Assembly: GCA_035544215.1 (NCBI GenBank) | Contig: DATKHY010000006.1 | Coordinates: forward strand, 1-64,000 | From: Candidatus Binatia bacterium | GTDB taxonomy: Bacteria > Vulcanimicrobiota > Vulcanimicrobiia > Vulcanimicrobiales > Vulcanimicrobiaceae | Length of the DNA stretch: 64,000 nucleotides | Reading direction: 5' to 3' | Shown: piece after piece, positions 2,779 through 18,215 of the stretch | Position numbering within the stretch: the first letter of the stretch is position 1 | How the letters are laid out: each line of letters opens with the position of its first letter | Translations under genes and position numbers: made by a program | The notes under the pieces: model-generated | Told to the model about the DNA's origin: nothing | Database searches by the model: none | The model's input: the letters and a program-made list of their open reading frames with translations, nothing else

Positions 2779-4128
2779 ATGCCGAAACGTTCCGTTGCGC
2801 GCACCGTAGCCGTCGCGTTTGCGCTTGCTTTGCTCACCGCCTGCGGCGCGGGAACGCCGGCGGGGGTTTCGCCGTCGTTGTCGCAAGCAACAGCGCTGCG
2901 GGCGGCGCGGAGCGGCACCGGCGCCGGGAAGATCCAACACGTCGTCTTCATCGTCCAAGAGAACCGGAGTTTCGACAACCTCTTTCAAGGCTATCCCGGC
3001 GCGGACACGCAGTCGTGGGGCAAGAACTCGAAGGGCGACACGATTCAGCTGCGGCCTATGAGCCTCGCGCGCGCCTATGAGATCGATCACTCCGCGCACG
3101 CGATGTTCACCGCGTGCGACGGAACCGGCACCTTGCCGGGAACGAAATGCCGCATGGACTCCTTCGACAAGGAGCAGGCCTTCTTGGCGCCGCCCAACCC
3201 ACAGTTCGTCTACGTTCCGCACAACCAGTCGAAGCCGTACTTCGACATGGCGCACGAGTGGGTGCTCGCCGATCGCATGTTCCAGTCGCAGCTCGACGAG
3301 AGCTTCGTCGCACATCAGTACGTCATCGCCGCGCAGGCACAGTCGAGCGTGGATTTGCCCGACGGTAAGTGGGGCTGCGAAGGGGGATCGTCGGACATCG
3401 TCCAGATGATCACCGACTCGCGCGTGTACGGCGGATGGCAGCAGGCGTGCTTCGACTATCAGACGCTCGGCGACGAGCTAGACGGCGCGAAGCTGACGTG
3501 GCGATTCTACACCAGCAAGTACACGAGCCCCAACGGCGGCGAGTGGTCGGGATATCAGGCCGTCAAGCACATCTTCGACGGGCCCGACTGGTCGAACGTC
3601 ATCACGCCGCAGAAGAAGTTCCTCACGGACGTCGCCGCCGGCACGCTCGACAACTTCACGTGGATCACGCCGACGTGCAAGAACTCCGACCACATCGACT
3701 GCGGGAGCGCGACGGGTCCGTCGTGGGTGACGGCGCTCGTCAACGCCGTCGGCGAGAGCCAGTTCTGGGACAGCACCGCGATCTTCGTCATCTGGGACGA
3801 CTGGGGCGGCCTGTACGACCACGTCCCGCCGCCGTACCGAGGCTACGACGGCGTGGGCTTCCGCGTACCGATGCTGGTGATCTCGCCGTACGCGCGCAAG
3901 AACTTCGTGTCGCACAAACAGTACGAGACCGCCAGCGTGTTGCGCTTCGCCGAGAACCTCTTCAACTTGGGGCAGCTCTCGCAAGCGGATGCGCGGGCGA
4001 CGTCGCCCGCGCAGGATTGCTTCGATTTCACGAAGCCTCCGCGGGCGTTCGGGCCGATCAAGGCGCCGAAGGGAGCGCAGTATTTCTTGCATCAGGCGCC
4101 CGATTTTCGCATTCCCGATGAGCAGTAG
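2779..4128 (+). CDS. Secreted phosphoesterase lipoprotein (PF04185 family), paralogue 2
   Basis: This 449-residue lipoprotein has its signal cysteine at residue 22. Glu61-Asn62 lie in the signature IVQENRSFDNLF, a serine lies in DESFVAHQ, and Asp340-Asp341 lie in WDDWGG. These are the residues that bind metal and form the phospho-enzyme in AcpA. The block DGTGTLPGTKCRMD is shared with paralogues 3 and 4 and marks a closely related subgroup. The gene overlaps the following paralogue by 11 bases, so the two are almost certainly co-transcribed. Activity as a phosphatase or phospholipase C is inferred from the family. Confidence 0.87.
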   Translation: MPKRSVARTVAVAFALALLTACGAGTPAGVSPSLSQATALRAARSGTGAGKIQHVVFIVQENRSFDNLFQGYPGADTQSWGKNSKGDTIQLRPMSLARAYEIDHSAHAMFTACDGTGTLPGTKCRMDSFDKEQAFLAPPNPQFVYVPHNQSKPYFDMAHEWVLADRMFQSQLDESFVAHQYVIAAQAQSSVDLPDGKWGCEGGSSDIVQMITDSRVYGGWQQACFDYQTLGDELDGAKLTWRFYTSKYTSPNGGEWSGYQAVKHIFDGPDWSNVITPQKKFLTDVAAGTLDNFTWITPTCKNSDHIDCGSATGPSWVTALVNAVGESQFWDSTAIFVIWDDWGGLYDHVPPPYRGYDGVGFRVPMLVISPYARKNFVSHKQYETASVLRFAENLFNLGQLSQADARATSPAQDCFDFTKPPRAFGPIKAPKGAQYFLHQAPDFRIPDEQ

Positions 4129-5461
4129 CCGCATAGCCGCGCTCGCCGCGGCGTGCGTGCTGAGCGCGTGTTCCCTCGGCGGCACGGCGGTTCCGCTCGG
4201 CGAGGCGCAGATATTCGGGAGCCTGCGCGCGACCGGCGCGGGCAAGATTCGGCACGTCATCTACATCGTGCAGGAGAATCGCAGCTTCAACGACCTGTTC
4301 GAAGGCTATCCCGGCGCGTACACCGTCTCGAGCGGTAAGGATTCGCATGGCCGGACCGTCGTGCTACGCCCCTTGAGTCTCGCGTGGCGCTACGAGATCG
4401 ACCATTCCGCCAAGGCGATGTTCGCCGACTGCAACGGAACCGGGAAGCTTCCCGGCACCAAGTGCCGGATGGACGGATTCGATCGCGAGCAGACCTACGG
4501 CGCGCCGAAGAGCATCAAGTATCCGACGTACGTCTACGCGCCGCACAAAGAGACCAAGCCGTACTTCGACATGGCGCACGAGTGGGTGCTCGCCGATCGC
4601 ATGTTCCAGTCGCAGCTCGACGAGAGCTTCGTGGCGCACCAGTACATCATTGCCGCGCAGGCGCACTCCGCCGTCGACATCCCGTACGGTCCGTGGGGAT
4701 GCGTGCCTGGGCCGAGCAACAGCGTCAATACGATCTTGCACGATCGCACGTACGGTCCGCCGGAATCGGCGTGCTTCGACTATCAGACGCTGGGCGACGA
4801 GCTCGACAAGGCGGGGCTGTCGTGGCGCTTCTATTCGAGCTGGTACGGCAACCGTTCCAGCGGCGACGGCGCGATTTGGTCGAGCTATCAGGCCGTGAAA
4901 CATATCTACGAGGGGCCCGATTGGGCGAACATCGTCACCCCGCAGAGGCGATTCTTCAAAGACGTCGCCGCCGGGAAGCTCGCGAACTTCACGTGGATCA
5001 CTCCGGTCTGCGACGACTCGGATCACACGAACTGCGGGGGCGGATACGGACCATCGTGGGTCGCGGCGCTCGTCAACGCGATCGGCAAGAGCAAGTTCTG
5101 GGACTCGACCGTGATCTTCGTGCAGTGGGATGACTGGGGCGGATTGTACGATCCGGTTGCGCCGCCGTACAAAGACTACGACGGCCTGGGCTTCCGGGTT
5201 CCGTTGATCGCGATCTCCGCGTACGCTAAGCGCGACTACGTGTCGCACGAGCAGTACGAGACGGCCAGCGTGCTGCGCTTTGCGGAGGATCTCTTCGGTT
5301 TGGGGCAGCTTGCGAGAGCGGACCGGCGCGCCACGTCGCCGGCCGCCGACTTTTTCGACTTTTCGCAGAAACCGCGCACGTTCGTGCCGATCAAGGCGCC
5401 GCGCGGGCGCGGCTTTTTCCTTGCGCAGCCCCGCGATTATCGCGCGCCCGACTACGAATAA
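4118..5461 (+). CDS. Secreted phosphoesterase lipoprotein (PF04185 family), paralogue 3
   Basis: The frame is open further upstream, but the lipoprotein signal beginning MSSSRIAALAAACVLSAC fixes the start at the ATG at 4118, inside the last codons of paralogue 2. The 447-residue product keeps VQENRSFNDLF, DESFVAHQ and WDDWGG, so the metal site and nucleophile are intact. It closely resembles paralogue 2 over its whole length, which points to recent tandem duplication. A strong hairpin follows the stop and also serves the convergent S53 gene. Confidence 0.86.
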   Translation: MSSSRIAALAAACVLSACSLGGTAVPLGEAQIFGSLRATGAGKIRHVIYIVQENRSFNDLFEGYPGAYTVSSGKDSHGRTVVLRPLSLAWRYEIDHSAKAMFADCNGTGKLPGTKCRMDGFDREQTYGAPKSIKYPTYVYAPHKETKPYFDMAHEWVLADRMFQSQLDESFVAHQYIIAAQAHSAVDIPYGPWGCVPGPSNSVNTILHDRTYGPPESACFDYQTLGDELDKAGLSWRFYSSWYGNRSSGDGAIWSSYQAVKHIYEGPDWANIVTPQRRFFKDVAAGKLANFTWITPVCDDSDHTNCGGGYGPSWVAALVNAIGKSKFWDSTVIFVQWDDWGGLYDPVAPPYKDYDGLGFRVPLIAISAYAKRDYVSHEQYETASVLRFAEDLFGLGQLARADRRATSPAADFFDFSQKPRTFVPIKAPRGRGFFLAQPRDYRAPDYE

Positions 5462-5463
5462 CG

Positions 5464-5493
5464 ATGAGGCGGGCGCTTTGGCGCCCGCCTCAT
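5464..5493. terminator. Hairpin between convergent genes
   Basis: A perfect 13-base stem (ATGAGGCGGGCGC at 5464-5476 pairing with 5481-5493) encloses a TTTG loop. It lies between the stop of the phosphoesterase gene at 5461 and the convergent S53 stop at 5514. There is no clear T-run on either side, so it may end transcription weakly or protect both 3' ends. Confidence 0.6.
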
Positions 5494-5513
5494 GAGCTAT
5501 AAGCGCTCGCGAG

Positions 5514-6728
5514 TTAGAACGCGCCGATGCCCTTCGGGCTTCCCCAGCCGCCCGGACCGGAGTAGGTCTTGTCCTGATGCGTGCCCGCCGTGCAGAGGTA
5601 GCTTCCGCCGCACGACCCGTCGTTGCCGACGAGAATCGGGTGCAGGTCGCGGTTGCGGTGCCTACCGTTGAGCGACCAGAACTTCTTTCCCGCATCCTGC
5701 GAGCTCGCGTTGCCGGCGAGGCCGAAGATCGCGGCCGCCATCGGCGTCGCGGCGCTCGTGCCGCACACGCCGCCCCATCCGCCGTCATACTGATCGTAGA
5801 CGGAGACGCCCGGGCTGCATCCGGCTTCCGCCGAGACGTCCGAGTCGGTGCGCGACGTGCAGCTCGGATCGTGCTGCCATGACGGCTTGGTTTCGCCCGT
5901 GGCGCAACCGCCGCCGGCGCCGTTCCAGATCGTTTCGGTGTACGTCGAGCCGCTCTTCGCCAGCTGCGTGCCGCCGACCGAGACGACGGTGTCGAGCGCT
6001 TCCGGCGCGCCGTTCTGCCCGTAGCCGGCGTCGCCCGACCCGGCCGTGTAGACCACGCCCGGCTGATCGAAGTCCGAATTGGTGACGCAGCTGATCGAGC
6101 CGTAGCAGATCCAGCTGTTGCTGACGATGTGCGCTCCGAGCGTCACGGCCTCTAACTCTGCCGTGTCGAGGTCGGTCGAGCTCGAGCTGTTCGCCTCAAC
6201 GAGATAGATCGTGCAGAGCGGGCAGGTCGCTGAGACCATCTCGACGTCGAGTGCGATCTCAACCGACCAGCCGGTGTAGGTGGGATAGTTGCTCTGCTGT
6301 CCGCTCTGATTGTACTTCTTGAAGTTGGCCGTACCGAGTCCGAACGTGGTGCGATACGTCGAGAGGGACGTCGCCACGCTGGGATTGTCGCCCGCGTCGA
6401 TGATCGCGACGATCTGGCCCGATCCCTTGGTGATCGGCAGCTTATAGCGCGTCTGGAGATCGATCGGCGCCCAGCCGCAGGTCGCGCCGGTGCATTCCGG
6501 CTGGATTCCGCGCTGGGTGAGAGCGAGGCAGGTAGGCCGGCCGGTCACCTGTGGGCAAACAGGTCGCGCCTGGCCCTTGGCGAGCCAGTCCGGCACGATG
6601 CCGTGCGCTTGAGTCAGCGCAGATTGACCGGTTGAGCCGGCGGCCGGCATAGAAGAGCCGCCCGAACTACAAGCGGCGATGGCGAGCGCCGCGATCAGCG
6701 GCGCCACAAGTTTTATGGTTCCGTTCAC
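5514..6728 (-). CDS. S53 (sedolisin) family peptidase lipoprotein, copy A
   Basis: This 404-residue protein has a lipobox ending at Cys20 and a sedolisin catalytic domain from about residue 90. The active-site set is present: Glu157 and Asp161 (E-I-A-L-D), the oxyanion Asp233 in SGDAGYG and Ser325 in CGTSAATP. The C-terminus has a D-I/L...G...GWGSPKG calcium-site region. The roughly 70 residues between the lipid anchor and the catalytic domain are too short for the usual kumamolisin pro-domain. The GTG at 6728 is chosen over the ATG at 6746 because AAGGAG lies six bases before it, as in copies B and C. It is the last of four tandem copies. Confidence 0.88.
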   Translation of the reverse strand: MNGTIKLVAPLIAALAIAACSSGGSSMPAAGSTGQSALTQAHGIVPDWLAKGQARPVCPQVTGRPTCLALTQRGIQPECTGATCGWAPIDLQTRYKLPITKGSGQIVAIIDAGDNPSVATSLSTYRTTFGLGTANFKKYNQSGQQSNYPTYTGWSVEIALDVEMVSATCPLCTIYLVEANSSSSTDLDTAELEAVTLGAHIVSNSWICYGSISCVTNSDFDQPGVVYTAGSGDAGYGQNGAPEALDTVVSVGGTQLAKSGSTYTETIWNGAGGGCATGETKPSWQHDPSCTSRTDSDVSAEAGCSPGVSVYDQYDGGWGGVCGTSAATPMAAAIFGLAGNASSQDAGKKFWSLNGRHRNRDLHPILVGNDGSCGGSYLCTAGTHQDKTYSGPGGWGSPKGIGAF

Positions 6729-6828
6729 AAACTGCTCCTTATTCATCCGTGGGTTTGGGTAAAGGGCGTTGCCTTTGGCCGGCTTTCGAACCTGCCGCCC
6801 GCGTTGCTCCTGGTCATCGTCTCTAACG

Positions 6829-6861
6829 AAAAAAGAGGCGGGTGCATCGTGCACCCGCCTC
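6829..6861 (-). terminator. Rho-independent terminator after S53 copy B
   Basis: An 11-base perfect stem (6835-6845 with 6851-6861) is followed, reading the minus strand, by a run of T complementary to the A-run at 6829-6834. It lies 29 bases past the stop of copy B and upstream of copy A. This is the clearest intrinsic terminator in the window. Confidence 0.85.
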
Positions 6862-6889
6862 GAGGTTTTAGGAAAGGCTTCGCCGCGCT

Positions 6890-8107
6890 TTAGTACGCGC
6901 CGATGCCCTTCGGCGTTCCCCAGCCCGTCGGACCGGCGTAGGTCTTGAACTGACCCGTGCCGTCCGTGCAGAGGTAGCTCCCGCCGCACGAGCCGTCGTT
7001 GCCGGTCTTGATGTCGTGGAGGTCGCGCCGGAGCTTCCGGGCTCTCAGGGTCCAGAACCCCTTACCGCTCTGGCGCGTGCTGGCGTTGCCGGCGAGGCCG
7101 AAGACGGCGGCATTAAGCGGCGAAGCCGCGCTGGTGCCGCAGACGCCGGTCCAGCCGCCCGACAGCGTGTCGTACTCCGCCACGCCCGGCGAGCAGCCGG
7201 CCTCGGAGGAGACGTCGGAGTCGGTGCGCGACGTGCAGCCCGGATCGTGCTGCCACGACGGCTTGGTTTCGCCGGTGGCGCAACCGCCGCCGGCGCCGTT
7301 CCAGGCCGATTCGGTGTAGGTCGATCCGCTCTTGGCGAGTTGCGTGCCGCCGACCGAGATGACCGAGTCGAGGGCTTCCGGCGCGCCGTTCTGTCCGTAG
7401 CCGGCGTCACCCGACGCGGCGAGATATGCAACGCCCGACGTATCGAAGTCCGAATTGTTGACGCAATTGATCGAGCCGTAGCAGATCCAGCTGTTGCTGA
7501 TGATGTGCGCGCCCAGCTTCACGGCTTCGACCTCAGCCGTGTCGAGGTCGGTCGAGCTCGCGCTGTTCGCCTCGACGAGATAGATCGTGCAGAGCGGGCA
7601 GGCCGCCGAGACCATGTCGATGTCGAGATCGATCTCGAGGTGCCAGCCGGTGTACGTCGGATAGTTGCTCTGCTGTCCGTTTTGGTTGTACTTCTTGAAG
7701 CTGGCCGTTCCGAGGCCGAACTGCGTGCGATACTTCGCGAGGTCCGTCGCGGCGTCGGGATGATCGCCGGCGTCGACGATCGCCACGATCTGGCCGGATC
7801 CCTTGGTGATCGGCAGTTTGTAGACCGTTTCGAGATCCTTGGGCGTGAAGCCGCAGGTGCTCGAGGGACTGCACAGCGGTTGGGGTCCGTTCTTGATCAG
7901 CGCGAGGCAGGTCGGCTGTCCGACGACCTGCGGGCAAGCCGCGTGGGCTTCGTTCTTCGCAAGCCACTCCGGCATAACTCGGGCCTGCGTGAACACGGAT
8001 TGACCGGGCACAGCCGAGGTGCTCGGAATGTTCGAGCCGCCCGAGCTACAGGCAGCGATGGCGAGCGCCGCAATCAGCGGCGCCATGAGTTTTATGGTTC
8101 CGTTCAC
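6890..8107 (-). CDS. S53 (sedolisin) family peptidase lipoprotein, copy B
   Basis: This 405-residue paralogue of copy A begins at a GTG with AAGGAG five bases upstream. The signal MNGTIKLMAPLIAALAIAAC is nearly identical to that of copy A. The catalytic residues are kept: E-I-D-L-D for Glu and Asp, ASGDAGYG for the oxyanion Asp and CGTSAASP for Ser. It shares with copy A several cysteines absent from copies C and D, such as the one in WICYG and the C-S-P segment before the serine, so A and B form one subgroup. It probably acts as an acid-adapted, lipid-anchored endopeptidase outside the membrane. Confidence 0.88.
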   Translation of the reverse strand: MNGTIKLMAPLIAALAIAACSSGGSNIPSTSAVPGQSVFTQARVMPEWLAKNEAHAACPQVVGQPTCLALIKNGPQPLCSPSSTCGFTPKDLETVYKLPITKGSGQIVAIVDAGDHPDAATDLAKYRTQFGLGTASFKKYNQNGQQSNYPTYTGWHLEIDLDIDMVSAACPLCTIYLVEANSASSTDLDTAEVEAVKLGAHIISNSWICYGSINCVNNSDFDTSGVAYLAASGDAGYGQNGAPEALDSVISVGGTQLAKSGSTYTESAWNGAGGGCATGETKPSWQHDPGCTSRTDSDVSSEAGCSPGVAEYDTLSGGWTGVCGTSAASPLNAAVFGLAGNASTRQSGKGFWTLRARKLRRDLHDIKTGNDGSCGGSYLCTDGTGQFKTYAGPTGWGTPKGIGAY

Positions 8108-8186
8108 AAGTGCTCCTTAGTAGTTGGTGGGATCTGGGTCCGGCTTCTGTTCACCCTGAGAGTTTCCTGACCTGCCACTAAAGTAA

Positions 8187-8214
8187 GAGGGCCGACCGTT
8201 TTCGGTCGACCCTC
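8187..8214 (-). terminator. Hairpin after S53 copy C
   Basis: GAGGG-C-CGACC pairs with GGTCG-A-CCCTC around a short loop, giving ten base pairs with one mismatch. It sits 25 bases past the stop of copy C and before the leader of copy B. The T-rich tail is weak. Confidence 0.6.
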
Positions 8215-8238
8215 GTGGCCTACCAATTCTAGCGAGCG

Positions 8239-9426
8239 CTAGAACGCACCGATGCCGTTGGGTGAACCCCACCCGCCGGGGCCTGAGTAGGTCTTGTACT
8301 GTTTGGTCCCCGCGACGCAGAGGTAGCCGCCTGCGAGGCTCGGCGGGCAATGGATCACTCCGCCGAGCGTGATGTCGTGGAGGGTGTGCTTAAGCTTCCT
8401 GGCCGAGAGCGTCCAGAACGGCTTACCGCTCTGACGGCTGCTTGCGTTGCCCGCAAGGCCGTAGACGCCGCCCATCAGCGGCGAGGAGACGCTCGTGCCG
8501 CCGATGACGATCCAGCCGCCGTAGGCGGTATCGTATTCGGCGACGTTCGACGCAACCGCCGAGATGTCGTTGGCAGTGCGCTCGGTGCACTTCGGATCGT
8601 GCTGCCACGACGGCTTGGTCTCGACCGAGCAGCCGCCGCCGCTGAAGGGCCAGATCTGCTCCTTGTACGTCGAGCCTTGCTTCGAAAGCTCGGTTCCGCC
8701 GACGGAGACGACGGTGTCGTAGTCCATCGGGTCCTGCGTGCCGTAGCCGTTGTCGCCGGCGCTCGCGAGGTACGTTACGCCGGATGCGTTGAACGCGCTG
8801 CCCGACGAGCTTCCGCCGCCGCCGCCCCAGCTGTTGCTGATGACGTGCGCGCCGAGCTTGACGGCCTCTTTCTCGGCCGCGTAAAGATTGGTCGTCGTGT
8901 TGTCGTTGGCTTCGATCAGATAGATCGTGCAGAGCGGACACGACGCCGAGACCATCTCGATGTCGAGGTCTTCCTCGACGCCCCAGTTTTTATTGACCTG
9001 CGGGTAGTGACTCTGCTGGCCGCTCTGGTTGTATTTGGTAAAGCTGGCCGTTCCGAGCCCGAAGTTCGTGCGGTACTTCGCGAGATCGGATGCGGCGGTG
9101 GGATTGTCGAAGGCGTCGACGATCGCAACGATTTGGCCTGACCCCTTCGTGATCGGCAGCCGGTACGCCGTCTGGAAATCGACCGGCGCCAAGCCCGCCA
9201 CGCCGGGTTGAACCTTGTTCATCGCCAGGACATCGCAGTTCATGTAGCCGGGGCGCGTGTCCGCGCAGATGCGACGATAGCCGGCCGCCTCGAGGGTCGA
9301 GTTCTGTAGCGCGCTGCCGGTCTGGCCGCCGGTCGCGGGAACGCTGGACGATAATCCGCCCGCGTTGCACGCCGCGAGGGCGACCGCTATGACGAGCGGC
9401 GCCGCCAGTTTGATAGTTCCGTTCAC
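8239..9426 (-). CDS. S53 (sedolisin) family peptidase lipoprotein, copy C
   Basis: This 395-residue lipoprotein starts at a GTG with TAAGGAG in front and has the lipobox ALAAC. Glu and Asp lie in VEEDLDIEM, the oxyanion Asp in SAGDNGYG and the nucleophile in GGTSVSSP. A glycine-rich ISNSWGGGGG replaces the cysteine-bearing loop of copies A and B. The C-terminal calcium-site segment DITLGG and GWGSPNGIGAF are present. As in the other copies there is no large pro-domain. It and copy D form the second subgroup. Confidence 0.88.
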   Translation of the reverse strand: MNGTIKLAAPLVIAVALAACNAGGLSSSVPATGGQTGSALQNSTLEAAGYRRICADTRPGYMNCDVLAMNKVQPGVAGLAPVDFQTAYRLPITKGSGQIVAIVDAFDNPTAASDLAKYRTNFGLGTASFTKYNQSGQQSHYPQVNKNWGVEEDLDIEMVSASCPLCTIYLIEANDNTTTNLYAAEKEAVKLGAHVISNSWGGGGGSSSGSAFNASGVTYLASAGDNGYGTQDPMDYDTVVSVGGTELSKQGSTYKEQIWPFSGGGCSVETKPSWQHDPKCTERTANDISAVASNVAEYDTAYGGWIVIGGTSVSSPLMGGVYGLAGNASSRQSGKPFWTLSARKLKHTLHDITLGGVIHCPPSLAGGYLCVAGTKQYKTYSGPGGWGSPNGIGAF

Positions 9427-9520
9427 AATAGCTCCTTACTGTCTGTTCTTAAGTTTTCGGGGAAGGAGGCTTACCTTGCGAGTCGTCCGGCTACCTCCTC
9501 GCCTTACAAACGTAAGAAAG

Positions 9521-9546
9521 CGGGGCGGCGTTTTGGCGCCGCCCCG
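9521..9546 (-). terminator. Terminator-like hairpin after S53 copy D
   Basis: A ten-base perfect stem, CGGGGCGGCG with CGCCGCCCCG, encloses the loop TTTTGG. It lies 27 bases past the stop of copy D. On the minus strand it is followed by CTTTCTTAC, a moderately T-rich tail. Confidence 0.7.
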
Positions 9547-9573
9547 TCATCTCGAGCTCCGTTAACCTAGGTA

Positions 9574-10773
9574 CTAGAAGGCGCCAATGCCGTTGGGCGT
9601 GCCCCAGCCGGCCGGTCCCGAGTAGGTCTTGTACTCGCCCGTCCCCGCCACGCACAGGTAGCTGCCGGACAGGCTCGGCGGGCAATTGACGACGCCGCCC
9701 GAGTTGATGTAGTGCAGATACCTTCTGCGGTTCTTGCTGGTGAGAGTCCAGAACGGTTTGCCGCCCTGGTGCGAGCTTGCGTTGCCGGCCAGGCCGAACA
9801 CGCCGCCGAGCAGCGGCGACGAGACGCTGGTGCCGCCGATGACGATCCAGCCGCAGTATGGGAACGTGTCGTACTCGGCGACGTTCTCTGCCACCGCAGA
9901 GACGTCGTTACCGGTGCGCTCGCTGCATTTCGGATCGTGCTGCCACGAGGGCTTGGTCACGACCGAGCGGCCGGCGCCGCTGTCCGGCCAGACCTTTTCG
10001 GTGTACGTCGAGCCGACCTTGGAGAGCTGCGTGCCGCCCACCGACACGACCGTGTCGTAGTCGACGGGATCCTGCATGCCGTAACCGCCGTCGCCGGCGC
10101 TCGCGAGATACATCACGCCCTTCTTGGCGAAGTCGCCGTAGGACGCGCTTCCGCCGCCGCCGCCGTAACTGTTGCTGATGACGTGCGCGCCCATCTTCGC
10201 GGCCCGCGCGACGGCCGCATAGAGATCGTTGCCGTTGTTCGAGTTGGCCTCGAACAGCCAGATCGTGCAGAGCGGATTGGAGGCCGAGACCATGTCGACG
10301 TCGAGGTCGATCTCGACGCACCAGCCGAGATTGCTGCCCGCACACTTTGACGGGTAGTTCTTCTTTTGCCCCAACTGGTTGAACTTGCTGACCTTGGCCG
10401 CGCCGAGGCCGAAGTTCTTACGATAGACTTTGAGATCCGACGCGACGTTCGGGTTGTCGAACGCATCGACGATCGCGACGACCTGTCCCGCACCCTTTGT
10501 GATCGGCAGTTTGTAGGCCGCTTGGAAATCGGCCGGCGCGAGTCCGGGGACACCGGGCTCGGCGTTGGTCTTGAGCAGCACGTCGCAGTTCATGTAGCCG
10601 GGGCACGCGTCGGCGCACAGGCGTTTATAGCCGGTTGCTTCGAGGTGCGAGGACGGCAAGTGGCCGACGGATTGCGCGGCGGTGCCGGGCACGCCGAACG
10701 AGCCGCCGGCGTTGCACGCCGCGACTCCGAGCGCCACGAGAAGCGACGCCGCAAGTTTTGTGGGTCCGTTCAC
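9574..10773 (-). CDS. S53 (sedolisin) family peptidase lipoprotein, copy D
   Basis: The frame stays open far upstream, but that stretch is antisense to the phosphoesterase gene at 10870. The lipoprotein signal VNGPTKLAASLLVALGVAAC, matching the other copies, sets the start at the GTG at 10773 and gives 399 residues. Glu and Asp lie in VEIDLDVDM, the oxyanion Asp in SAGDGGYG and Ser in GGTSVSSP. One extra cysteine pair appears around SKCAGSNLGWC. The ribosome site here is weak (AGAAG), unlike the AAGGAG of the other copies, so expression may differ. Confidence 0.87.
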   Translation of the reverse strand: MNGPTKLAASLLVALGVAACNAGGSFGVPGTAAQSVGHLPSSHLEATGYKRLCADACPGYMNCDVLLKTNAEPGVPGLAPADFQAAYKLPITKGAGQVVAIVDAFDNPNVASDLKVYRKNFGLGAAKVSKFNQLGQKKNYPSKCAGSNLGWCVEIDLDVDMVSASNPLCTIWLFEANSNNGNDLYAAVARAAKMGAHVISNSYGGGGGSASYGDFAKKGVMYLASAGDGGYGMQDPVDYDTVVSVGGTQLSKVGSTYTEKVWPDSGAGRSVVTKPSWQHDPKCSERTGNDVSAVAENVAEYDTFPYCGWIVIGGTSVSSPLLGGVFGLAGNASSHQGGKPFWTLTSKNRRRYLHYINSGGVVNCPPSLSGSYLCVAGTGEYKTYSGPAGWGTPNGIGAF

Positions 10774-10869
10774 GAGAAGCTTCTTTTGCAAACGTTTCGC
10801 GAGGTCTGGGAAAGCGCTGGTTCCCGAAGGGAATCGGGCGGGCCTGGTGGCATTGCTGCGCGTATCGTG

Positions 10870-12213
10870 ATGCGGCGAATCAGCATGCTCGCGGCCTGCG
10901 CGGCCGCGGCCGTGAGCCTCGGCTCGTGTTCGATCGGATCGCCGGTCGCACCGGCGTTGCTGCCGCGCGCGGACGACGTGCTCGGCGCACTCGGCGGCAC
11001 CGGCGCCGGCAAGATCAAACACGTCGTCTGGATCGTGCAAGAGAACCGCAGCTTCGACGACATGTTCCAAGGCTATCCCGGTGCGGATACGCAATCGTGG
11101 GGCAAGACGTCCAAGGGACAGCGCATCAAACTCGCGCCGGTTAGTCTGGCGGCCCAGTACGAGATCGACCACTCGGCGCACGCAATGTTCGAAGCGTGCG
11201 ATGGAACGGGCAAGCTGCCGGGGACGAAGTGCCGCATGGACTCTTTCGACAAGGAGCAGACGTACGGCGGTCCGCGCAACGGACAATACGTCTACGTGCC
11301 GCATAGCGAGACGAAGCCGCTGTTCGACATGGCGCACGAATGGGTGTTGGCCGACCGGATGTTCGCGTCGCAGCTGGACGAGAGCTTCGTCGCGCATCAA
11401 TACATCATCGCGGCGCAGGCGCGTTCGAGCGTCAACGTTCCGGACTCGTTCTGGGGCTGCGAGGGATACCCGGGAGACGAGGTCGCGACGATCACGCACC
11501 AGCGGACGTACGGCGGGGCTCAGCAGCCATGCTTTAACTACAAGACGCTCGGCGACGAACTCGATGCCGCGGGGCTGCCGTGGCGCTTCTACACGAGCTC
11601 GTACCAGAAACCCGTGAGCGGCTTCTGGTCCGGCTATCAGGCGGTGCGACACATCTTCCACGGCCCAGACTGGCACAAAGACGTCATCATGCCGCAGAAG
11701 CGCTTCCTGAACGACGTCGCCGCCGGACGGCTCGCGAGCTTCACCTGGATCACGCCGCTCTGCCCGGACTCGGACCATCCCATCTGCGGCGGCGGCTACG
11801 GGCCGTCGTGGGTAACGTCGCTGGTCGACGCGATCGGCAAGAGCAAGTTCTGGAACAGCACCGCCATCTTCGTGCAGTGGGACGACTGGGGCGGCTTCTA
11901 CGATCACGTTCCGCCGCCGTATCGCGGCTACGATGGCCTTGGATTCCGCGTTGGGCTGCTGGTGATCTCGCCGTACGCACGCAAAGACCGCGTCATACAC
12001 ACCCAGTATGAGACGGCGAGCGTCTTGCGCTTCGCCGAAGACCTCTTCGGCTTAGCTCAGCTGACCGACGCCGACCATCGTGCGACGTCGCCCGCCGCCG
12101 ACTGCTTCGACTTCTCCGCACCGCCGCGCAAGTTCGTCCCGATCAACTCGCCCAAAGGACCGGACTTCTTTTTGACCCAGCCCAACGACGGCACGATCCC
12201 CGACGAACAGTAG
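10870..12213 (+). CDS. Secreted phosphoesterase lipoprotein (PF04185 family), paralogue 4
   Basis: This 447-residue lipoprotein has the signal MRRISMLAACAAAAVSLGSC. The signature IVQENRSFDDMF, the serine segment DESFVAHQ and WDDWGG are all intact. It is closest to paralogues 2 and 3 and shares DGTGKLPGTKCRMD and the ending IPDEQ with paralogue 2. It stands alone, divergent from S53 copy D across 96 bases. The S53 block therefore lies inside what was probably one phosphoesterase array. Confidence 0.86.
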   Translation: MRRISMLAACAAAAVSLGSCSIGSPVAPALLPRADDVLGALGGTGAGKIKHVVWIVQENRSFDDMFQGYPGADTQSWGKTSKGQRIKLAPVSLAAQYEIDHSAHAMFEACDGTGKLPGTKCRMDSFDKEQTYGGPRNGQYVYVPHSETKPLFDMAHEWVLADRMFASQLDESFVAHQYIIAAQARSSVNVPDSFWGCEGYPGDEVATITHQRTYGGAQQPCFNYKTLGDELDAAGLPWRFYTSSYQKPVSGFWSGYQAVRHIFHGPDWHKDVIMPQKRFLNDVAAGRLASFTWITPLCPDSDHPICGGGYGPSWVTSLVDAIGKSKFWNSTAIFVQWDDWGGFYDHVPPPYRGYDGLGFRVGLLVISPYARKDRVIHTQYETASVLRFAEDLFGLAQLTDADHRATSPAADCFDFSAPPRKFVPINSPKGPDFFLTQPNDGTIPDEQ

Positions 12214-12225
12214 TTTTCACCCCTT

Positions 12226-12367
12226 GTCATCCTGAGCGAAGCGAGCGCAGCGAGCGAAGTCGAAGGACGGGTTAGCCGCTGTCATCCTGAGCGAAGGCGC
12301 GCAGCGCCGAAGTCGAAGGACGGGTTAGCCGCGCAGTCCTGAGCGAGCGGAGCGAGCCGAAGGACGG
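12226..12367. repeat. REP-like repeat cluster, left arm (three units)
   Basis: Three head-to-tail units carry the core CCTGAGCGA...GTCGAAGGACG. They lie at 12226-12279, 12281-12332 and 12335-12367; the first two start GTCATCCTGAGCGAAG and end GGGTTAGCCGC. Each unit can fold on itself. The last two units reappear in inverted order at 12721-12807. Similar TCATCCTGAGCGAAG repeats are, from memory, common as dispersed elements in other bacterial genomes. This cluster fills the gap after paralogue 4. Confidence 0.85.
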
Positions 12368-12419
12368 TATGATGCGGTGACCCATAGTCAGTCGAGTCAT
12401 CGCCGCGCAGAGTGGCGGG

Positions 12420-12710
12420 ATGATGAAACTTTACTACTTCTACGTCCTACTGTGGAGATCGCTCGCTCTACACCGGAATTACAAAGGATCCGGAGGTTCG
12501 TGTGCCTCAACATCAGGAAGGCGGCCATCCGTGTTGCTACACGTTCACGCGTCGCCCGGTCAGCTGGTCCACTGTTTGGAACTCCACGGCGTTACCGACG
12601 CGATCGCTTTCGAGAAGGAGCTCAAGGGATGGTCGCGCGCCAAGAAGCTTGCATTCATCAGCTGGAACTTTTCGCTGGTGCACGAGCTTGCGAAGAGAAC
12701 GCGAAAGTAA
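12420..12710 (+). pseudogene. Frameshifted GIY-YIG (URI-type) endonuclease gene
   Basis: The N-terminus MMKLYYFYVLL and the C-terminus KELKGWSRAKKLAFI, which match small GIY-YIG proteins, are in one frame. The middle, YTGITKDPEVRVPQHQ...TFTRRPV with the conserved Y-T-G, is in the +1 frame. The frame changes near 12450 and changes back near 12560, so the outer frame stays open across a scrambled centre. The restored protein would be about 96 residues, the usual size. The shifts are not in long homopolymers. It is probably a decayed gene; two assembly errors are the alternative. Confidence 0.75.
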
Positions 12711-12720
12711 GACCTAAGTA

Positions 12721-12807
12721 CCGTCCTTCGGCTCGCTCCGCTCGCTCAGGACTGCGCGGCTAACCCGTCCTTCGACTTCGGCGCGCCGCACCTTCGCTCA
12801 GGATGAC
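12721..12807. repeat. REP-like repeat, right arm (inverted)
   Basis: This is the reverse complement of the last two left-arm units. Bases 12721-12753 mirror 12335-12367, and 12756-12807 mirror 12281-12332 except for a few bases in the central GC palindrome. It ends ten bases before the stop codon of the phosphoesterase gene at 12817. Confidence 0.85.
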
Positions 12808-12816
12808 ACCGAGAGG

Positions 12817-14310
12817 TTACTCGGTGTCGACGGGGAGGCCCGATGGTTTCTGCTTGAGGAAAAACGATTCCGAATATTTCGATCTGATCTTGTGAAACAG
12901 ACGCGGAGGCTGGCTGAAGTTGAAGGCATTGCCGATGCTAGCTGCGCGCACGTCCGGCGACGGCGGCAGCGTTCCGAGGCTCCAGTTGTCCTGGATGAAC
13001 TTGAGGACGCTCGCCGTCTCGTACTGCGTGTGCTCGACGTGTGGTTGGACGTACGGTGAAACGATCAGCAACGGCAATCGGAATCCCAGCCCGCCCTGAT
13101 TGTCTTGGAACGGCGGCTTGACGTGATCGTAGAAACCGCCCGGATCGTCCCACAGGATGACGATCGCAGAGGTGTCCCAGTACTTGCTCTGACCGATCGC
13201 ATTTACGACCGATGCAACCCATGATGGCCCGTCATCCTTCGGAATGGGTTTCTTGCTGACGATCTTGTATTCAGCGGGATGGTCGGAGTTGAATGCGTCC
13301 GGAGTGACCCATGCCACGGATGGAAGTTTGCCGTTCTTGATGTCGTTGAAGATAAAGTTCGGGCTCCTCGTGACGTTCGTCTGCCATTCCGGTCCCTCGC
13401 GAACGGCCTTGATCGCGTCGAACGCGCTCCAGATGCCGCCGTTCTTTTTTGGGGCGGTCGTATAATATTTCCACGAGATTTTGCTGGCGTCGAGCTGGTC
13501 GCGAATCGTCTCGTACGTGAAGCACGGAAACGGCCCTACGGCCTGATAGTATTTGCCGCTTGTGGTTATCAGCGATGTGACCGTTCCTGGGGGCGAGTCC
13601 TCGCAGCCCCACGGCATGTTGAACGGATTGTCGATGATGCTGTTGTCGCCGTAATACGAGGGATCGTAGTTGACGACGGTCCCGCCGGCGATCAGGTCTT
13701 GGTGCCCGGTGAAACTCTCGCTGCCCTGCGTGTCGAACATGTTATCTGCCAGCACGTATTGCTTGGCAATGTCCCAGTACGGCTTAATGTCGTTGGGATC
13801 GACGTACTGGTACGCGTACGTGCACTCTGCCTGCGGCCCCTTACCGGTCGCACCGAACTTGACGAGATCAAACCCGTCCATGCTCCCGTTGTCGAGCTCC
13901 GTGAGGTAGCCGCCATAGTGGTGGTCTAGGTCGTTGTCGTGACCGAAGTTGTTCGGTGGGAAACCGTCACCGACCAAGTTGACCTTGGTGAGCTGCACGG
14001 TCGTGGGGTACGTGATGACCGGTTGGCCTTTTCTCGCGCACGATTGCTGGATCGGGGCCGGCATCGCTGCCGCCTGTCCGCTCGTCGCGCCGTTCGCGCC
14101 CGGATACCTCGCGAAAAGATTATCGAAGCTACGGTTCTCCTGGATCACGACGATCACGTGCTGGATCGGAGTGCTTCCGCTGTGGCCGCGCGCTCCAGGG
14201 ATCAATGCGCCGCCCGCTCCGCGTGAAGATAAGCCTCCGCCACATGCTGCGACGGCTACGGCGGCGAACGCCAAGAGAGCGAACCAGCGGCTTGAAACGC
14301 GTGCCGGCAC
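12817..14310 (-). CDS. Secreted phosphoesterase lipoprotein (PF04185 family), paralogue 6
   Basis: The product has 497 residues, starts at the GTG at 14310 and has the lipobox VAAC. The start lies seven bases after the stop of paralogue 5, with GGAG inside the upstream gene's end. VIQENRSFDNLF, SESFTGHQ and WDDPGGFYDHV give the metal and nucleophile residues; note Pro in place of the Trp of WDDWGG. It belongs to a second subgroup, longer than paralogues 1-4, with an insert TSGQAAAMPAPIQQSC near residue 80. It is the last gene of the operon led by a type III polyketide synthase, so its substrate may be linked to that product. Confidence 0.86.
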   Translation of the reverse strand: MPARVSSRWFALLAFAAVAVAACGGGLSSRGAGGALIPGARGHSGSTPIQHVIVVIQENRSFDNLFARYPGANGATSGQAAAMPAPIQQSCARKGQPVITYPTTVQLTKVNLVGDGFPPNNFGHDNDLDHHYGGYLTELDNGSMDGFDLVKFGATGKGPQAECTYAYQYVDPNDIKPYWDIAKQYVLADNMFDTQGSESFTGHQDLIAGGTVVNYDPSYYGDNSIIDNPFNMPWGCEDSPPGTVTSLITTSGKYYQAVGPFPCFTYETIRDQLDASKISWKYYTTAPKKNGGIWSAFDAIKAVREGPEWQTNVTRSPNFIFNDIKNGKLPSVAWVTPDAFNSDHPAEYKIVSKKPIPKDDGPSWVASVVNAIGQSKYWDTSAIVILWDDPGGFYDHVKPPFQDNQGGLGFRLPLLIVSPYVQPHVEHTQYETASVLKFIQDNWSLGTLPPSPDVRAASIGNAFNFSQPPRLFHKIRSKYSESFFLKQKPSGLPVDTE

Positions 14311-14317
14311 GGCTGGA

Positions 14318-15799
14318 TTACTCCGTGTCGACGGGGAGACCAGACGGCCGTTGCTTGAGGAAGAACGACTCGGAGTGCGTCGACTGGATCTTGTGAAACG
14401 CGCGCGGCGGCTTGCTGAAGTCGAAGACGTTGCCGATGCTCGCGGCGCGGACGTCCGGCGTGGCGGGCAACGTTCCAAGGTTCCAGTTGTCCTGGATGAA
14501 CTTCAAAACGCTCGCGGACTCATACTGGGTGTGTTCGACGTGCGCCTGAACGTAAGGCGAGACTATGAGCATCGGGATGCGGAAGCCGAGACCGCCCTGG
14601 TTGTCCAAGAACGGCGGCTTGACGTGGTCGTAGAAACCGCCCGGGTCGTCCCACAGGACTACGATGGCGGACGAGTTCCAGTACTTCTTGCTCGTGCCGA
14701 TCGCGTTCACGACCGATGCGACCCATGAAGGGCCGTTATCGACCGGAACCAACTTTCTCCCCACGTGCATGTACTCGGCCGGATGATCGGAGTTGTAGGC
14801 GTCCGGCGTGATCCACGCGACGGAAGGCAGCTTGCCGTTCTTGATGTCGTTGAAGATGACGTTTGGGTTCGTCGTAACGTTCGTGTGCCACTCCGAGCCT
14901 TCCCTGACTTTTTTGATCGCGTCGAACGCGCTCCAGATGCCCGCGCCGCCCTTGTTCGACCCGACGGTGTAGTACTTCCACGAGATCTTGGCGGCGTCGA
15001 GCTGATCGCGGACAGTACCGTACTTGAGGCACGGAAACGGTCCGGCGCCCATGAGGTATTGGCCGCCGGTCGTTATGAGCGTCGTCACCGTACCCGGCGG
15101 CGCGTCGCAGCCCCACGGCATGTTGAAGGGATTGTCGATAATGCTGTTATCGCCGTATTTTGAAATCTTGTAGTTGACGGCCGTGCCGCCGGCGATCAGG
15201 TCTTGATGTCCGGTGAAGCTCGAGCTGCCCTGCGTGTCGAACATCTCGTCGGCCAGTACGTACTGGTTTGCGATGTCCCAGTACGGCTTGACGTCGTTGG
15301 GATCGACGTATTGATATGCATAAGTGCACTCGGCCTGCGGCCCGCTACCGTCGGCGCCGAAGAGCGCGAGGTCGTACCCATCCATGTTGCCGTTGTCGTA
15401 TTCGGCGAGGAAGCCCCCGTAGATGTGATCGAGGTCGTTGTCCGCTCCGAAGTTGTTCTTGAATCCGGCTCCGACCAAGGACACCTTGGTGAGCTGCACA
15501 GTCGTGGGGTACGTGATGACCGGTTGGCCTTTTCTCGCACACGACTGCTGGATCGGCGTGGGCATCGGCGCCGCCTGACCGCTGGTCGCGCCGTTTGCGC
15601 CGGGATAGGTCGCGAAGAGGTTGTCGAAGCTGCGGTTTTCTTGGATCACGACGATCACGTGCCGGATCTTCGTGCTTCCGCTATGCCCGCGCACACCAGG
15701 AATCAATCCGCTGCCGGCTCCGCCTGAAGAAAAGCCCCCGCCGCACGCCGCGATGGCCGCGCCCGCGAAGAGCACGAGCGCCCACAACCGCGGGCTCAC
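14318..15799 (-). CDS. Secreted phosphoesterase lipoprotein (PF04185 family), paralogue 5
   Basis: This 493-residue lipoprotein (lipobox IAAC) starts at a GTG that overlaps the TGA of the sulfotransferase gene by four bases, so the two are translationally coupled. VIQENRSFDNLF, SSSFTGHQ and WDDPGGFYDHV are kept. It is closely similar to paralogue 6 and both end in SGLPVDTE, so they are tandem duplicates. Its place between a sulfotransferase and another phosphoesterase suggests extracellular phosphate-ester or phospholipid cleavage tied to the operon's product. Confidence 0.87.
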   Translation of the reverse strand: MSPRLWALVLFAGAAIAACGGGFSSGGAGSGLIPGVRGHSGSTKIRHVIVVIQENRSFDNLFATYPGANGATSGQAAPMPTPIQQSCARKGQPVITYPTTVQLTKVSLVGAGFKNNFGADNDLDHIYGGFLAEYDNGNMDGYDLALFGADGSGPQAECTYAYQYVDPNDVKPYWDIANQYVLADEMFDTQGSSSFTGHQDLIAGGTAVNYKISKYGDNSIIDNPFNMPWGCDAPPGTVTTLITTGGQYLMGAGPFPCLKYGTVRDQLDAAKISWKYYTVGSNKGGAGIWSAFDAIKKVREGSEWHTNVTTNPNVIFNDIKNGKLPSVAWITPDAYNSDHPAEYMHVGRKLVPVDNGPSWVASVVNAIGTSKKYWNSSAIVVLWDDPGGFYDHVKPPFLDNQGGLGFRIPMLIVSPYVQAHVEHTQYESASVLKFIQDNWNLGTLPATPDVRAASIGNVFDFSKPPRAFHKIQSTHSESFFLKQRPSGLPVDTE

Positions 15800-16947
15800 G
15801 AGACGGCCACCTTCTGCGCGATGGCGTCGACGTCGTAGCCGAACTTCGAGGCGACGCCGGACGTCGCCGAGACGATCGCGGACATCTGGGCCGCGTCGAA
15901 CTTCGGCTTGTAGTAATCCGGGAACGAGAGCTTCTGTCCGTACGCCTCGCGCGTCGCGGCGAAGCTCTGCGGGTCGAGCTCGGCGTGAGCGATGATGCGG
16001 TCGATGGTCGGGAGCGAGTCGGCGCAGAGGTCCTCATAGCGCACGGTGCACACGCGCCGCGCCAGCTCGGGATCGCTCTCGAGCTGGCGCGCGACGAAGC
16101 CATAGACGTAGGCCCAGTAGCGCGCCCGCGACTCGGCGACATGCCCGGAATCGAAGAGCGCCCGGATTTCCTTGAGTTCCTCGGGATTCCCGACGTTGGC
16201 CATCACCTGGTGCGGGCCAAACTCGTGGTGTCCGGTGAGCTCGATGATCTCGATCTGGCGTGGGTCGCTCTGCTCGAGCTCGGCCCAGATGCGGTCCTGC
16301 TTGATCAGCGACGCGACGTGGTCCACCGGATTGCGGATGTAGAGGAGGAAGCGCGCGTCGGGGAAGAGCTTGCGCAGGTACTGCATGCGCACGACGCACA
16401 TGATCGCCTTGCTCACGTAGCGCGTGCGCCCTCGCACCAGCGCGAGCTTGCGCAGATGTTCGTCGTAGAAGCGTTCGAACGAGCGGTTCGACGTGGTGCC
16501 GTCGAGCACGCTGTAGTTCGCCTCGTCGTGGATGTGGGGGAAGAAGTGCTCCCACAGGATCTCCTCGCCCATCTCGGCGCTGTCGCGCGTCACCTCGATC
16601 CGATCGCGATGGATGCGCGGAACCGGCTTGCGCATAGCGTCGACGGGGATGCGCGGGAAGACCTTGTTCCACACGTACGGCATGTAAGGCATCAGGAAGT
16701 CGGCGTACTTGTGCGTCACGACGTCCGGATGCTCGCTGAGCATCTGCAGCGTAATCGTCGTGCCGGCCCGCGGAAGGCCGCAGATATAGACCGGGCGATC
16801 CACCTTTGTCGCCGCGAGCCGTCCGCGCAGGAAGCCGGATTCGAGGTTACCCAGGCCGACGAAGAACGGCGCGCCGGCGTGTACGGTGCGGACGCTCCAA
16901 TAGAACGGCGCAGGCACGGAGAACTTCTGCGGTGTCGATGTACTCAT
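15796..16947 (-). CDS. PAPS-dependent sulfotransferase
   Basis: This 383-residue protein has the 5'-phosphosulfate loop GLPRAGTT near residue 60 and the 3'-phosphate-binding segment LLYIRNPVDHVASL near residue 205. Both are hallmarks of 3'-phosphoadenylylsulfate-using sulfotransferases. There is no signal peptide, so it acts in the cytoplasm. GGGAGCT directly precedes the ATG at 16947. It lies 20 bases after the type III polyketide synthase and overlaps the next gene by four bases. The natural inference is that it sulfates a hydroxyl of the polyketide; the acceptor cannot be read from the sequence. Confidence 0.85.
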   Translation of the reverse strand: MSTSTPQKFSVPAPFYWSVRTVHAGAPFFVGLGNLESGFLRGRLAATKVDRPVYICGLPRAGTTITLQMLSEHPDVVTHKYADFLMPYMPYVWNKVFPRIPVDAMRKPVPRIHRDRIEVTRDSAEMGEEILWEHFFPHIHDEANYSVLDGTTSNRSFERFYDEHLRKLALVRGRTRYVSKAIMCVVRMQYLRKLFPDARFLLYIRNPVDHVASLIKQDRIWAELEQSDPRQIEIIELTGHHEFGPHQVMANVGNPEELKEIRALFDSGHVAESRARYWAYVYGFVARQLESDPELARRVCTVRYEDLCADSLPTIDRIIAHAELDPQSFAATREAYGQKLSFPDYYKPKFDAAQMSAIVSATSGVASKFGYDVDAIAQKVAVS

Positions 16948-16967
16948 AGCTCCCGTCGATTGTGACG

Positions 16968-18215
16968 CTATAGTTTTTCGAAAAGGGCGCCGATCACGGT
17001 TAAACCCGGACCGAATGCCATGCTCAGGACCTTCGCTCCCCGAGGGATAGCCTGGGATTCCACGATCAGCTTCCAGATGTGCGGCGCCGTCGCGGAGGCC
17101 ATGTTTCCGTTTTCGAACAAGACTTTCCGGCTCAGCTCGATCTGCGACTCCTCGATCCCGAGACGGCTGCGGATCTGGTTGAGGATCGCCGGTCCGCCCG
17201 GGTGAATCGCGAAGACCATCCCCGCCTTTTCGCGCTCGAAGTCGAGGCCGACCTGGCCGCAGATCGATTCGACGAAGTCCTTGATCGAGTCGCGGATCAT
17301 GAACGGCACTCGCTTCGAGAGCGACATGTCGAACTGCAGGGGACCGGGCCGCAGCGTCATCTCGGGCAGCGAGTCCGGCAGAATGTACTCGTCGATCGCC
17401 AGAATGCGCAGCCCGCTCTTACCGCTCTTCGCGAACTCCGACTGCGGATATGCCGCGTACTTGATGAAACCGTCCGCGAACAGCGTGGACGTCACGAAGT
17501 TGTCGGGCTCGTCGCCGAGCAAATCGAAGTGCAGCGAGAGAAACTCGGTGTGAACGAGGTCGACGCGCCTCTTGCGCTTCGGCAGCGAGACGTGCGAGGA
17601 GCCAACGAGCCCTACGGCCGTGCGGATCGCCGGGAACGCGCCGTAACACCCCATGTGATACGAGTGCGTGACTCCGACGCCGAGCCAGCCGCGGCGCGAC
17701 AGGAAACTCTGCACCGGGCTGGGCGAGAGATATCCCGAGCAGCTCACGTGGATGACGTCGTCGGGCGGAGGCGCGGCCTCGTCGCGATAGACCCGAGCGA
17801 ACACGTCGTACGCGATCTCCTCGAAGAGGCTCATGCGCGCGTCGAGCGGCTCGCCGGTGCCGGTGCGCAGGTTTCCGAACCGCCGGATGGGCTCGTATTC
17901 GTTGTCGGGATCCGGCGTGACGAAGCGCGACGTCAACACGCTGACCTGCCTCTGCGCGATGTGCTCGGACGACGCGCCGTAGCGCGCCATGCGTTCCTGC
18001 AGCGTGTGCGCGATGCGGTCGCGCTCCGCAGCCGACGTCACGCCGCGCGACGCGCACTGCGCGAGCGTCATGAAGTGCGCCTGGATGACCTTCAGCTCGT
18101 CTTGCGCGCGCGGACTCGTAACGCCGATCGTTTCGAAATCGGACAGAACGACCGGAACGGCCGCGAGGCGCGGCCGTGCAGCGATCATCCCAGACACTTT
18201 CTCTAGCGTGCGCAT
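16968..18215 (-). CDS. Type III polyketide synthase (chalcone/stilbene synthase family)
   Basis: This 415-residue enzyme carries the full catalytic triad: Cys190 in HMGCYGAF, His338 in IHPGGPAIL and Asn371 in ENGNMASA. The C-terminal FGPGLTV loop is also present. The His-Asn distance of 33 equals that of plant chalcone synthase. Such enzymes condense an acyl-CoA with several malonyl-CoA units into pyrones, resorcinols or phloroglucinols. The 101 bases upstream should hold the operon promoter, but I see no convincing one. The start at 18215 lacks a good ribosome site; the ATG at 18188 is an alternative. It heads a four-gene operon. Confidence 0.92.
   Translation of the reverse strand: MRTLEKVSGMIAARPRLAAVPVVLSDFETIGVTSPRAQDELKVIQAHFMTLAQCASRGVTSAAERDRIAHTLQERMARYGASSEHIAQRQVSVLTSRFVTPDPDNEYEPIRRFGNLRTGTGEPLDARMSLFEEIAYDVFARVYRDEAAPPPDDVIHVSCSGYLSPSPVQSFLSRRGWLGVGVTHSYHMGCYGAFPAIRTAVGLVGSSHVSLPKRKRRVDLVHTEFLSLHFDLLGDEPDNFVTSTLFADGFIKYAAYPQSEFAKSGKSGLRILAIDEYILPDSLPEMTLRPGPLQFDMSLSKRVPFMIRDSIKDFVESICGQVGLDFEREKAGMVFAIHPGGPAILNQIRSRLGIEESQIELSRKVLFENGNMASATAPHIWKLIVESQAIPRGAKVLSMAFGPGLTVIGALFEKL

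Follow-up and report, generated by a model that had tools for sequence, protein, structure and literature searches.

Does the small GIY-YIG nuclease gene that lies between inverted repeat arms in the window (the whole 64,000-nt stretch of DNA analysed here, C6:1-64000 of the 3.23-Mb, nine-contig genome G000) form a mobile unit together with these repeats? A preliminary description had likened the arrangement to RAYT/REP units and had given the arms as 87 bases long. The inverted arms are real, although we measured 93 nt (left arm, 12277-12369, + strand; right arm, 12719-12811, - strand), with 96% complementarity and 349 nt between them. The repeat units on the left do recur inverted on the right: each arm holds two tandem units (on the left, outer at about 12280-12323 and inner at about 12334-12367; on the right, inner and outer inverted), and a third unit, GTCATCCTGAGCG..GTCGAAGGACG, lies outermost on the left, outside the arm (12226-12270, +; core listed as 12231-12266). 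All of this sits in a 603-bp gap (12214-12816) that separates the stop codons of two convergent open reading frames outside the element (10366-12213, +, and 12817-14478, -), which, from their sequence, we read as phosphoesterase-like. On the same kind of reading, positions 3000-18000 of the window appear to contain phosphoesterase-like and S53-peptidase-like paralogues arranged in arrays, and one 2.3-kb stretch has 24-34 matches in each of 18 congeneric genomes. No Rfam family matched the window locus at E 0.1, and PADLOC defence models gave weak matches only, 'homing endonuclease' among them.

The gene between the arms (12420-12710, +) has GIY-YIG homology, as described, but this copy is not intact. 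Its open 96-aa frame gave no Pfam match at E 0.01, and homology to an intact copy elsewhere in the genome is split over two different frames (12445-12564 and 12549-12704), which indicates two frameshifts that scramble the catalytic part and that may represent either decay or draft-assembly errors. The intact copy (G000:C3:617994-618281) encodes 96 aa, scores 55.6 bits against Pfam GIY-YIG, and is flanked by arms of the same kind and orientation as those in the window (617851-617942, +, and 618293-618387, -). Broken copies were also seen at two other loci, L039 and L042, each with a stop. The window arm has 57 matches in the genome, and a looser repeat pattern has 124. When 97 listed units were entered, neighbours within 300 bp were tandem in 19 cases, had tags outward in four and were opposite in five, so that solitary arms are common. 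There are also four gene-less arm pairs, 25-45 bp apart, two of which (C5 end and C9 end) may be one place; the end of C5 and the start of C9 carry a near-identical repeat region, and these contigs may adjoin.

Relatives of the intact protein were found in 89 of the 149 genomes of the phylum. We fetched 90 loci, leaving out the weakest matches and the window's two own fragments, and scored inverted repeats between the 350 bp upstream and the 350 bp downstream of each gene. A family cut-off of at least 65 bits retained 56 loci in 49 genomes, of which 49 loci were assessable (at least 100 bp on both sides). Inverted arms scored at least 30 at 46 of these 49 family loci (the other three being L054, L066, and L080) and at least 40 at 40 of them, while shuffled flanks of phylum loci reached a maximum of 27. 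A chance origin of the arms was rejected, since shuffled flanks score no more than 27-28 and family arms in the phylum mostly score 40-244. Below 65 bits, 34 loci were fetched and 33 were assessable, five of which scored at least 30; three of these five (L095, L105, and L110) fall in the same family by tree position.

In a tree of 183 rows, which had few columns, moderate support and many open forks, 26 of 26 assessable arm-less loci of the phylum grouped in one clade (support 90), whereas the remaining clades contained 127 loci with arms and 20 without (of 147). The family of the intact gene lies outside the arm-less clade, which we infer to be UPF0213-like, the tree itself holding no UPF0213 reference. 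Arms are thus not a feature of GIY-YIG genes in general, none of the 26 phylum loci in this related clade having them. Another GIY-YIG gene in the window genome, the third, belongs to the arm-less clade (G000:C7:693134-693346) and has one lone repeat unit adjoining.

In the phylum, the arm consensus is TGTCAYYCYGAGC..TCGARGGRY, mostly forward upstream of the gene and inverted downstream. At least ten copies of the pattern GTCAYYCYGAGCN{2,30}TCGARGG were present in 46 of 49 genomes with the gene versus 20 of 100 without it (median copies 65 versus 0), so that the repeats do not occur everywhere regardless of the gene; the reversed reading of this pattern was present in none of the 149 genomes. 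Within the family of the window genome, the corresponding fractions were 46 of 49 and 20 of 50, kinship being uncorrected both here and across the 149 genomes. Some of the gene-less genomes with at least ten repeats are incomplete, and others may have lost the gene in the past. Private variants were also found: GTCACCCCGAGTA..TATCGAGGGG occurs in all ten genomes of a single genus, two genes of which are flanked by arms of this type, and, at one or two copies, in three of the other 139 genomes, while GTCACGCTGAGC..TCGAAGCG has 82 copies in G118, whose own gene has those arms, 36 in G095, and 16 in G077. In genus g11, GAGTA-type repeats have an inner part that is free to vary yet self-complementary (e.g., CTGCCGAAGGCAG, GTTGCGAAGCAAC), which suggests that the hairpin is under selection or is kept up by mutation.

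The association extends across phyla. We took the best 80 of at least 572 relatives, picked by protein similarity alone (broader alignment, genome contigs); their record titles name Alpha-, Beta-, and Gammaproteobacteria, Bacteroidota, Nitrospirae, Armatimonadota, Anaerolineae, and Patescibacteria, among others. Inverted arms scored at least 30 at 67 of these best 80 loci and at least 40 at 55, with no such score at 64 loci shifted by 1000 bp or in 400 shuffles; arms are therefore regular at other GIY-YIG loci, both here and in the phylum. One AT-rich match, L139, is apparently unrelated to these repeats. A blind scan for any perfect hairpin within 200 bp (stem at least 7, loop 3-9), which made no use of the tag, returned 178 hairpins at the best 80 of at least 572 loci versus 23 at 65 shifted controls. 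The triplet beside the stem was GTC in 121 of the 178 hairpins, and the opposite tail was CCA in 117. Tagged hairpins on both sides of the gene were found at 40 of the 80 loci and at none of the 65 controls. General genome background was accordingly rejected as the source of the arms (shifted controls 0 of 64; paired tagged hairpins 0 of 65).

These features recall a known group of repeats. Di Nocera (2013; PMC3733652), in the parts of that paper drawn on here, sorts REPs into two large superfamilies, GTAG and CGTC. Repeats of the CGTC superfamily (neisserial dRS3 and rickettsial RPE-4/RPE-6 among them) carry CGTC or TGTC as their tag, have an 8-9 bp stem starting with AT and a CCA tail, and mostly form inverted dimers; the superfamily 'apparently lack[s] a dedicated transposase', and a search for transposase genes at these repeats gave fortuitous associations only (PMC3733652). 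GIY-YIG is not mentioned in that work (no occurrence of 'giy'). The arms of the best 80 of at least 572 relatives fit this description in GTC tag, AT stem start, CCA tail, and inverted dimers; furthermore, Azospirillum lipoferum, Sinorhizobium meliloti, Novosphingobium aromaticivorans, and Neisseria, named there for CGTC repeats, also carry GIY-YIG loci (same species or genera).

Measured against the same description, the window units begin with TGTCAT and so have the tag and the AT start in common with the CGTC repeats, whereas their stem is broken or imperfect and the CCA tail is absent; we therefore regard the window repeat as a relative or variant of CGTC REPs. In the window's phylum, the perfect-hairpin scan found hardly any tagged hairpins, and at none of 53 loci were they on both sides, because stems there are imperfect, and the phylum stems were therefore assessed by a covariation count. 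In window-type repeats, the 4-nt outer stem shows covariation, with seven perfectly paired types (TTCT, TCCT, CCCT, TGGT, TCCC, CGCT, and CCCC), and 116 unique units had a mean of 2.54 of 4 positions paired versus at most 2.41 in shuffles. Single window units folded no better than shuffles.

Nucleases and repeats correspond to each other. Among 14 genomes of Bradyrhizobium and relatives, we found 64 GIY-YIG matches (3-8 per genome), fetched 30 loci, and detected a tagged hairpin at 26. Different nucleases within one genome never had the same 7-nt stem (0 of 15 pairs), whereas nucleases of different genomes did so in 22 of 34 pairs at an identity of at least 75%, in 11 of 163 pairs at 55-75%, and in 2 of 113 pairs below 55%. 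The Mantel correlation between nuclease and stem was 0.52, a value not reached in any of 2000 permutations. G166 and G167 each have three such nucleases with three stems, the set being identical in both. Stems of the Bradyrhizobium-type nuclease-repeat pairs include ATCGCCC, ATGGCCG, and GTCCCTG. The GTCCCTG repeat has 107, 103, and 75 copies in three genomes that share one nuclease lineage of that stem; of the others, six have 3-11 copies and five have none. As arms descend with the gene, this correspondence is one of paired lineages, which is compatible with recognition of the repeat by the nuclease and is no proof of it.

Empty sites, the search for which had been proposed with the preliminary description, were found at two places. 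For the window site, we compared six of eight fetched regions (G050 and G048 were left out). The stops of the convergent neighbours, 603 bp apart in the window, are separated by 0, 2, 3, and 20 bp in the congeneric genomes G037, G038, G044, and G043, respectively, with no repeats at these four sites; the near-abutting stops identify the window unit as an insertion. G040 has a related, internally deleted element at this site, and G052 has a different arrangement. In Azospirillum lipoferum 4B, an element lies between sufB and sufC that is absent in the five other Azospirillum records compared, with sequence divergence over some 40-50 bp. At neither the Azospirillum nor the window site did we see a clean target duplication, the relatives having diverged.

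Deletion derivatives accompany full elements. Sinorhizobium Ak57 has, beside a full copy, a derivative that keeps the 3' end of the gene, while Sinorhizobium K101 has a single fused repeat at its site. The chromosome of Sphingomonas sp. IC081 contains 14 exact units of one pattern, which form seven inverted pairs: two full elements of 379 bp with an open GIY-YIG frame, and five deletion derivatives of 129-141 bp in which the middle is missing and both ends, those of the gene included, are retained. The presence of both gene ends and of the outer flanks of the full copies shows that these gene-less pairs arose from the full element. The IC081 elements also have sequence in common outside the repeats, for about 57 bp at one side and several tens of bp at the other, so that the repeats are not always the ends; the left flank of one full element (L275) contains about four tandem half-repeats, GTCATTCCCGCCCCCTCTTC. 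In Novosphingobium capsulatum, a single full element is accompanied by ten or more pairs whose spacing is almost constant (62-64 bp) and whose interior is not evidently gene-derived.

A comparison of flanks that was meant to reveal different insertion sites showed instead that many copies are orthologous, several of them flipped. The cassette has opposite orientations between species at orthologous sites in L052 versus L057/L086, L044 versus L047, and L037 versus L039; further pairs of this kind are L046 versus L050, L059 versus L060, and L069 versus L072, only one flank being comparable in some pairs. It thus seems that the cassette flips in place between its inverted arms.

GIY-YIG is the sole Pfam domain of the protein, apart from a weak T5orf172 match in 3 of 10 sequences. 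Invariant residues include V6, Y7, G19, R27, H31, and E65, and the C-terminal part is rich in lysine. An AlphaFold2 model (mean pLDDT 81, pTM 0.73) has UPF0213, Slx1, and UvrC domains as its nearest folds (one match under E 0.001), with I-TevI among the weaker structure matches. UPF0213 (PDB 1zg2, 1ywl) and Slx1, with which it has the catalytic fold in common, are closest by sequence profile and fold; the UPF0213-like clade of the same phylum differs from the armed family in its lack of arms (0 of 26). The gene is under purifying selection: dN/dS is mostly 0.06-0.16 in close orthologous pairs, and pN is lower than pS in 1711 of 1711 gene pairs.

We consider it likely, at roughly 70%, that the GIY-YIG gene and the inverted palindromes flanking it form one mobile unit, the arms elsewhere being its non-autonomous offspring. 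On our best reading, it is a transposon-like element with a GIY-YIG nuclease as its sole enzyme, which works in a REP/RAYT-like manner by unrelated catalysis. The unit would disperse at a low rate within a genome and leave as its offspring isolated units, arms in tandem, and inverted pairs that lack the gene, the arms being mobilised in trans. The nuclease would recognise its own lineage's GTC-tagged palindrome, probably in the form of a hairpin or cruciform that replication exposes, and would cut at both arms; because GIY-YIG enzymes hydrolyse and do not join, host repair or annealing would be needed to capture the released or copied segment at another place. It is the class of the enzyme that suggests cutting at palindromes and capture by host repair as the way in which the nuclease would mobilise the repeats and the unit would integrate. 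Internal deletion would yield MITE-like derivatives, and the inverted arms would allow the cassette to flip in place. The many elements at orthologous sites under purifying selection point to slow movement or to a domesticated gene, and we expect the unit to move slowly and to be partly domesticated. RAYTs likewise move slowly and are partly domesticated.

Alternatively, the nuclease may be a domesticated caretaker that cuts or trims repeat hairpins for the host, with the arms as its binding or control sites and their spread a matter of the past. The usual count of a single copy per genome (56 loci in 49 genomes), orthologous retention, low dN/dS, and the structure-selective enzymes among its relatives all fit such a role; we nevertheless hold it to be unlikely in view of the 3-8 GIY-YIG matches in each of the 14 Bradyrhizobium-type genomes, the deletion derivatives in IC081, and the broken copies (the window; L039 and L042). 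Decidedly improbable, in our view, is a homing endonuclease whose target is a gene-less repeat pair made by other means, into which, once the pair is cut, the gene is copied via homologous arms. GIY-YIG is a homing-endonuclease fold, I-TevI being among the weaker structure matches, the gene is central in an inverted pair, gene-less pairs exist, and the single fused repeat at the K101 site would fit homing or deletion; however, the empty sites of the window locus hold no repeat, and the gene-less pairs in IC081, with both gene ends and the outer flanks of the full copies, derive from the full element. That another transposase makes the repeats, and that the small gene rides in them or collects beside them, is very doubtful indeed: 20 of the 100 genomes in which no gene was detected do have at least ten repeats, and the nuclease as mover of the repeats is what we infer, but the association is found again in many lineages and phyla whose arm sequences differ, arms are present at 0 of 26 loci of the related GIY-YIG clade in the window's phylum, the gene is under purifying selection, and PMC3733652, in the parts drawn on, reports only fortuitous transposase associations at CGTC repeats.

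The reading of gene and arms as one mobile unit invites comparison with known systems. RAYT genes encode a small nuclease between inverted palindromic repeats, have many gene-less copies of these repeats, occur mostly once per genome, and are under purifying selection. The GIY-YIG unit has the same layout as REP/RAYT (TnpA-REP) and REPINs, with the gene between inverted repeats and gene-less pairs elsewhere. The likeness drawn in the preliminary description therefore holds as an analogy in layout and fails as membership, since the enzyme of REP/RAYT is a Y1/HUH transposase, to which the GIY-YIG hydrolase is unrelated; the tag, too, is GTAG there and GTC here. GIY-YIG homing endonucleases of the I-TevI type are likewise selfish GIY-YIG genes, whereas the unit described here is free-standing and intergenic, occupies various sites without intron or intein, and has its own arms and deletion derivatives. 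IS elements with MITEs also combine an autonomous element with internal-deletion derivatives (five of the seven elements in IC081), but the GIY-YIG unit lacks a transposase, a target duplication was not seen, and its palindromic units also occur singly.

To our knowledge, no class of mobile element uses a GIY-YIG nuclease alone; as mobile elements are classed by their enzyme, the unit would constitute a new class, although, classed by layout, it may count as a variant of the REP/RAYT kind. Within the open-licence PMC literature (preprints lying outside this scope), including the parts of PMC9465073 drawn on, we found no paper that joins GIY-YIG with palindromic repeats. We lean towards the wider view that such a GIY-YIG-only class of elements, each nuclease recognising its own palindromic repeat, gave rise to the CGTC REP superfamily (dRS3 and rickettsial RPE included) and continues to spread it in many phyla. 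Rickettsia and Wolbachia have such repeats and may have lost the gene. The gene of about 95 codons is a concrete candidate enzyme for CGTC REPs that can be tested on oligonucleotides. If this view is correct, (i) a GIY-YIG-only class would join the known chemistries of mobile elements; (ii) the origin of some of the most widespread intergenic repeats would be explained; and (iii) many natural nuclease-repeat pairs would be available for studies of specificity.

Matches were also found in phage and plasmid records. Distant matches (less than 60% identity) occurred in 23 of 50,697 phage records. In a plasmid collection, 35 records had a match; ten of the 12 examined scored at least 34, and the loci L133 and L135 had no inverted repeat. 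On a plasmid of Planktothrix agardhii (L125), the GIY-YIG gene and palindromic repeats lie between an MmeI-like restriction gene and DISARM drmA.
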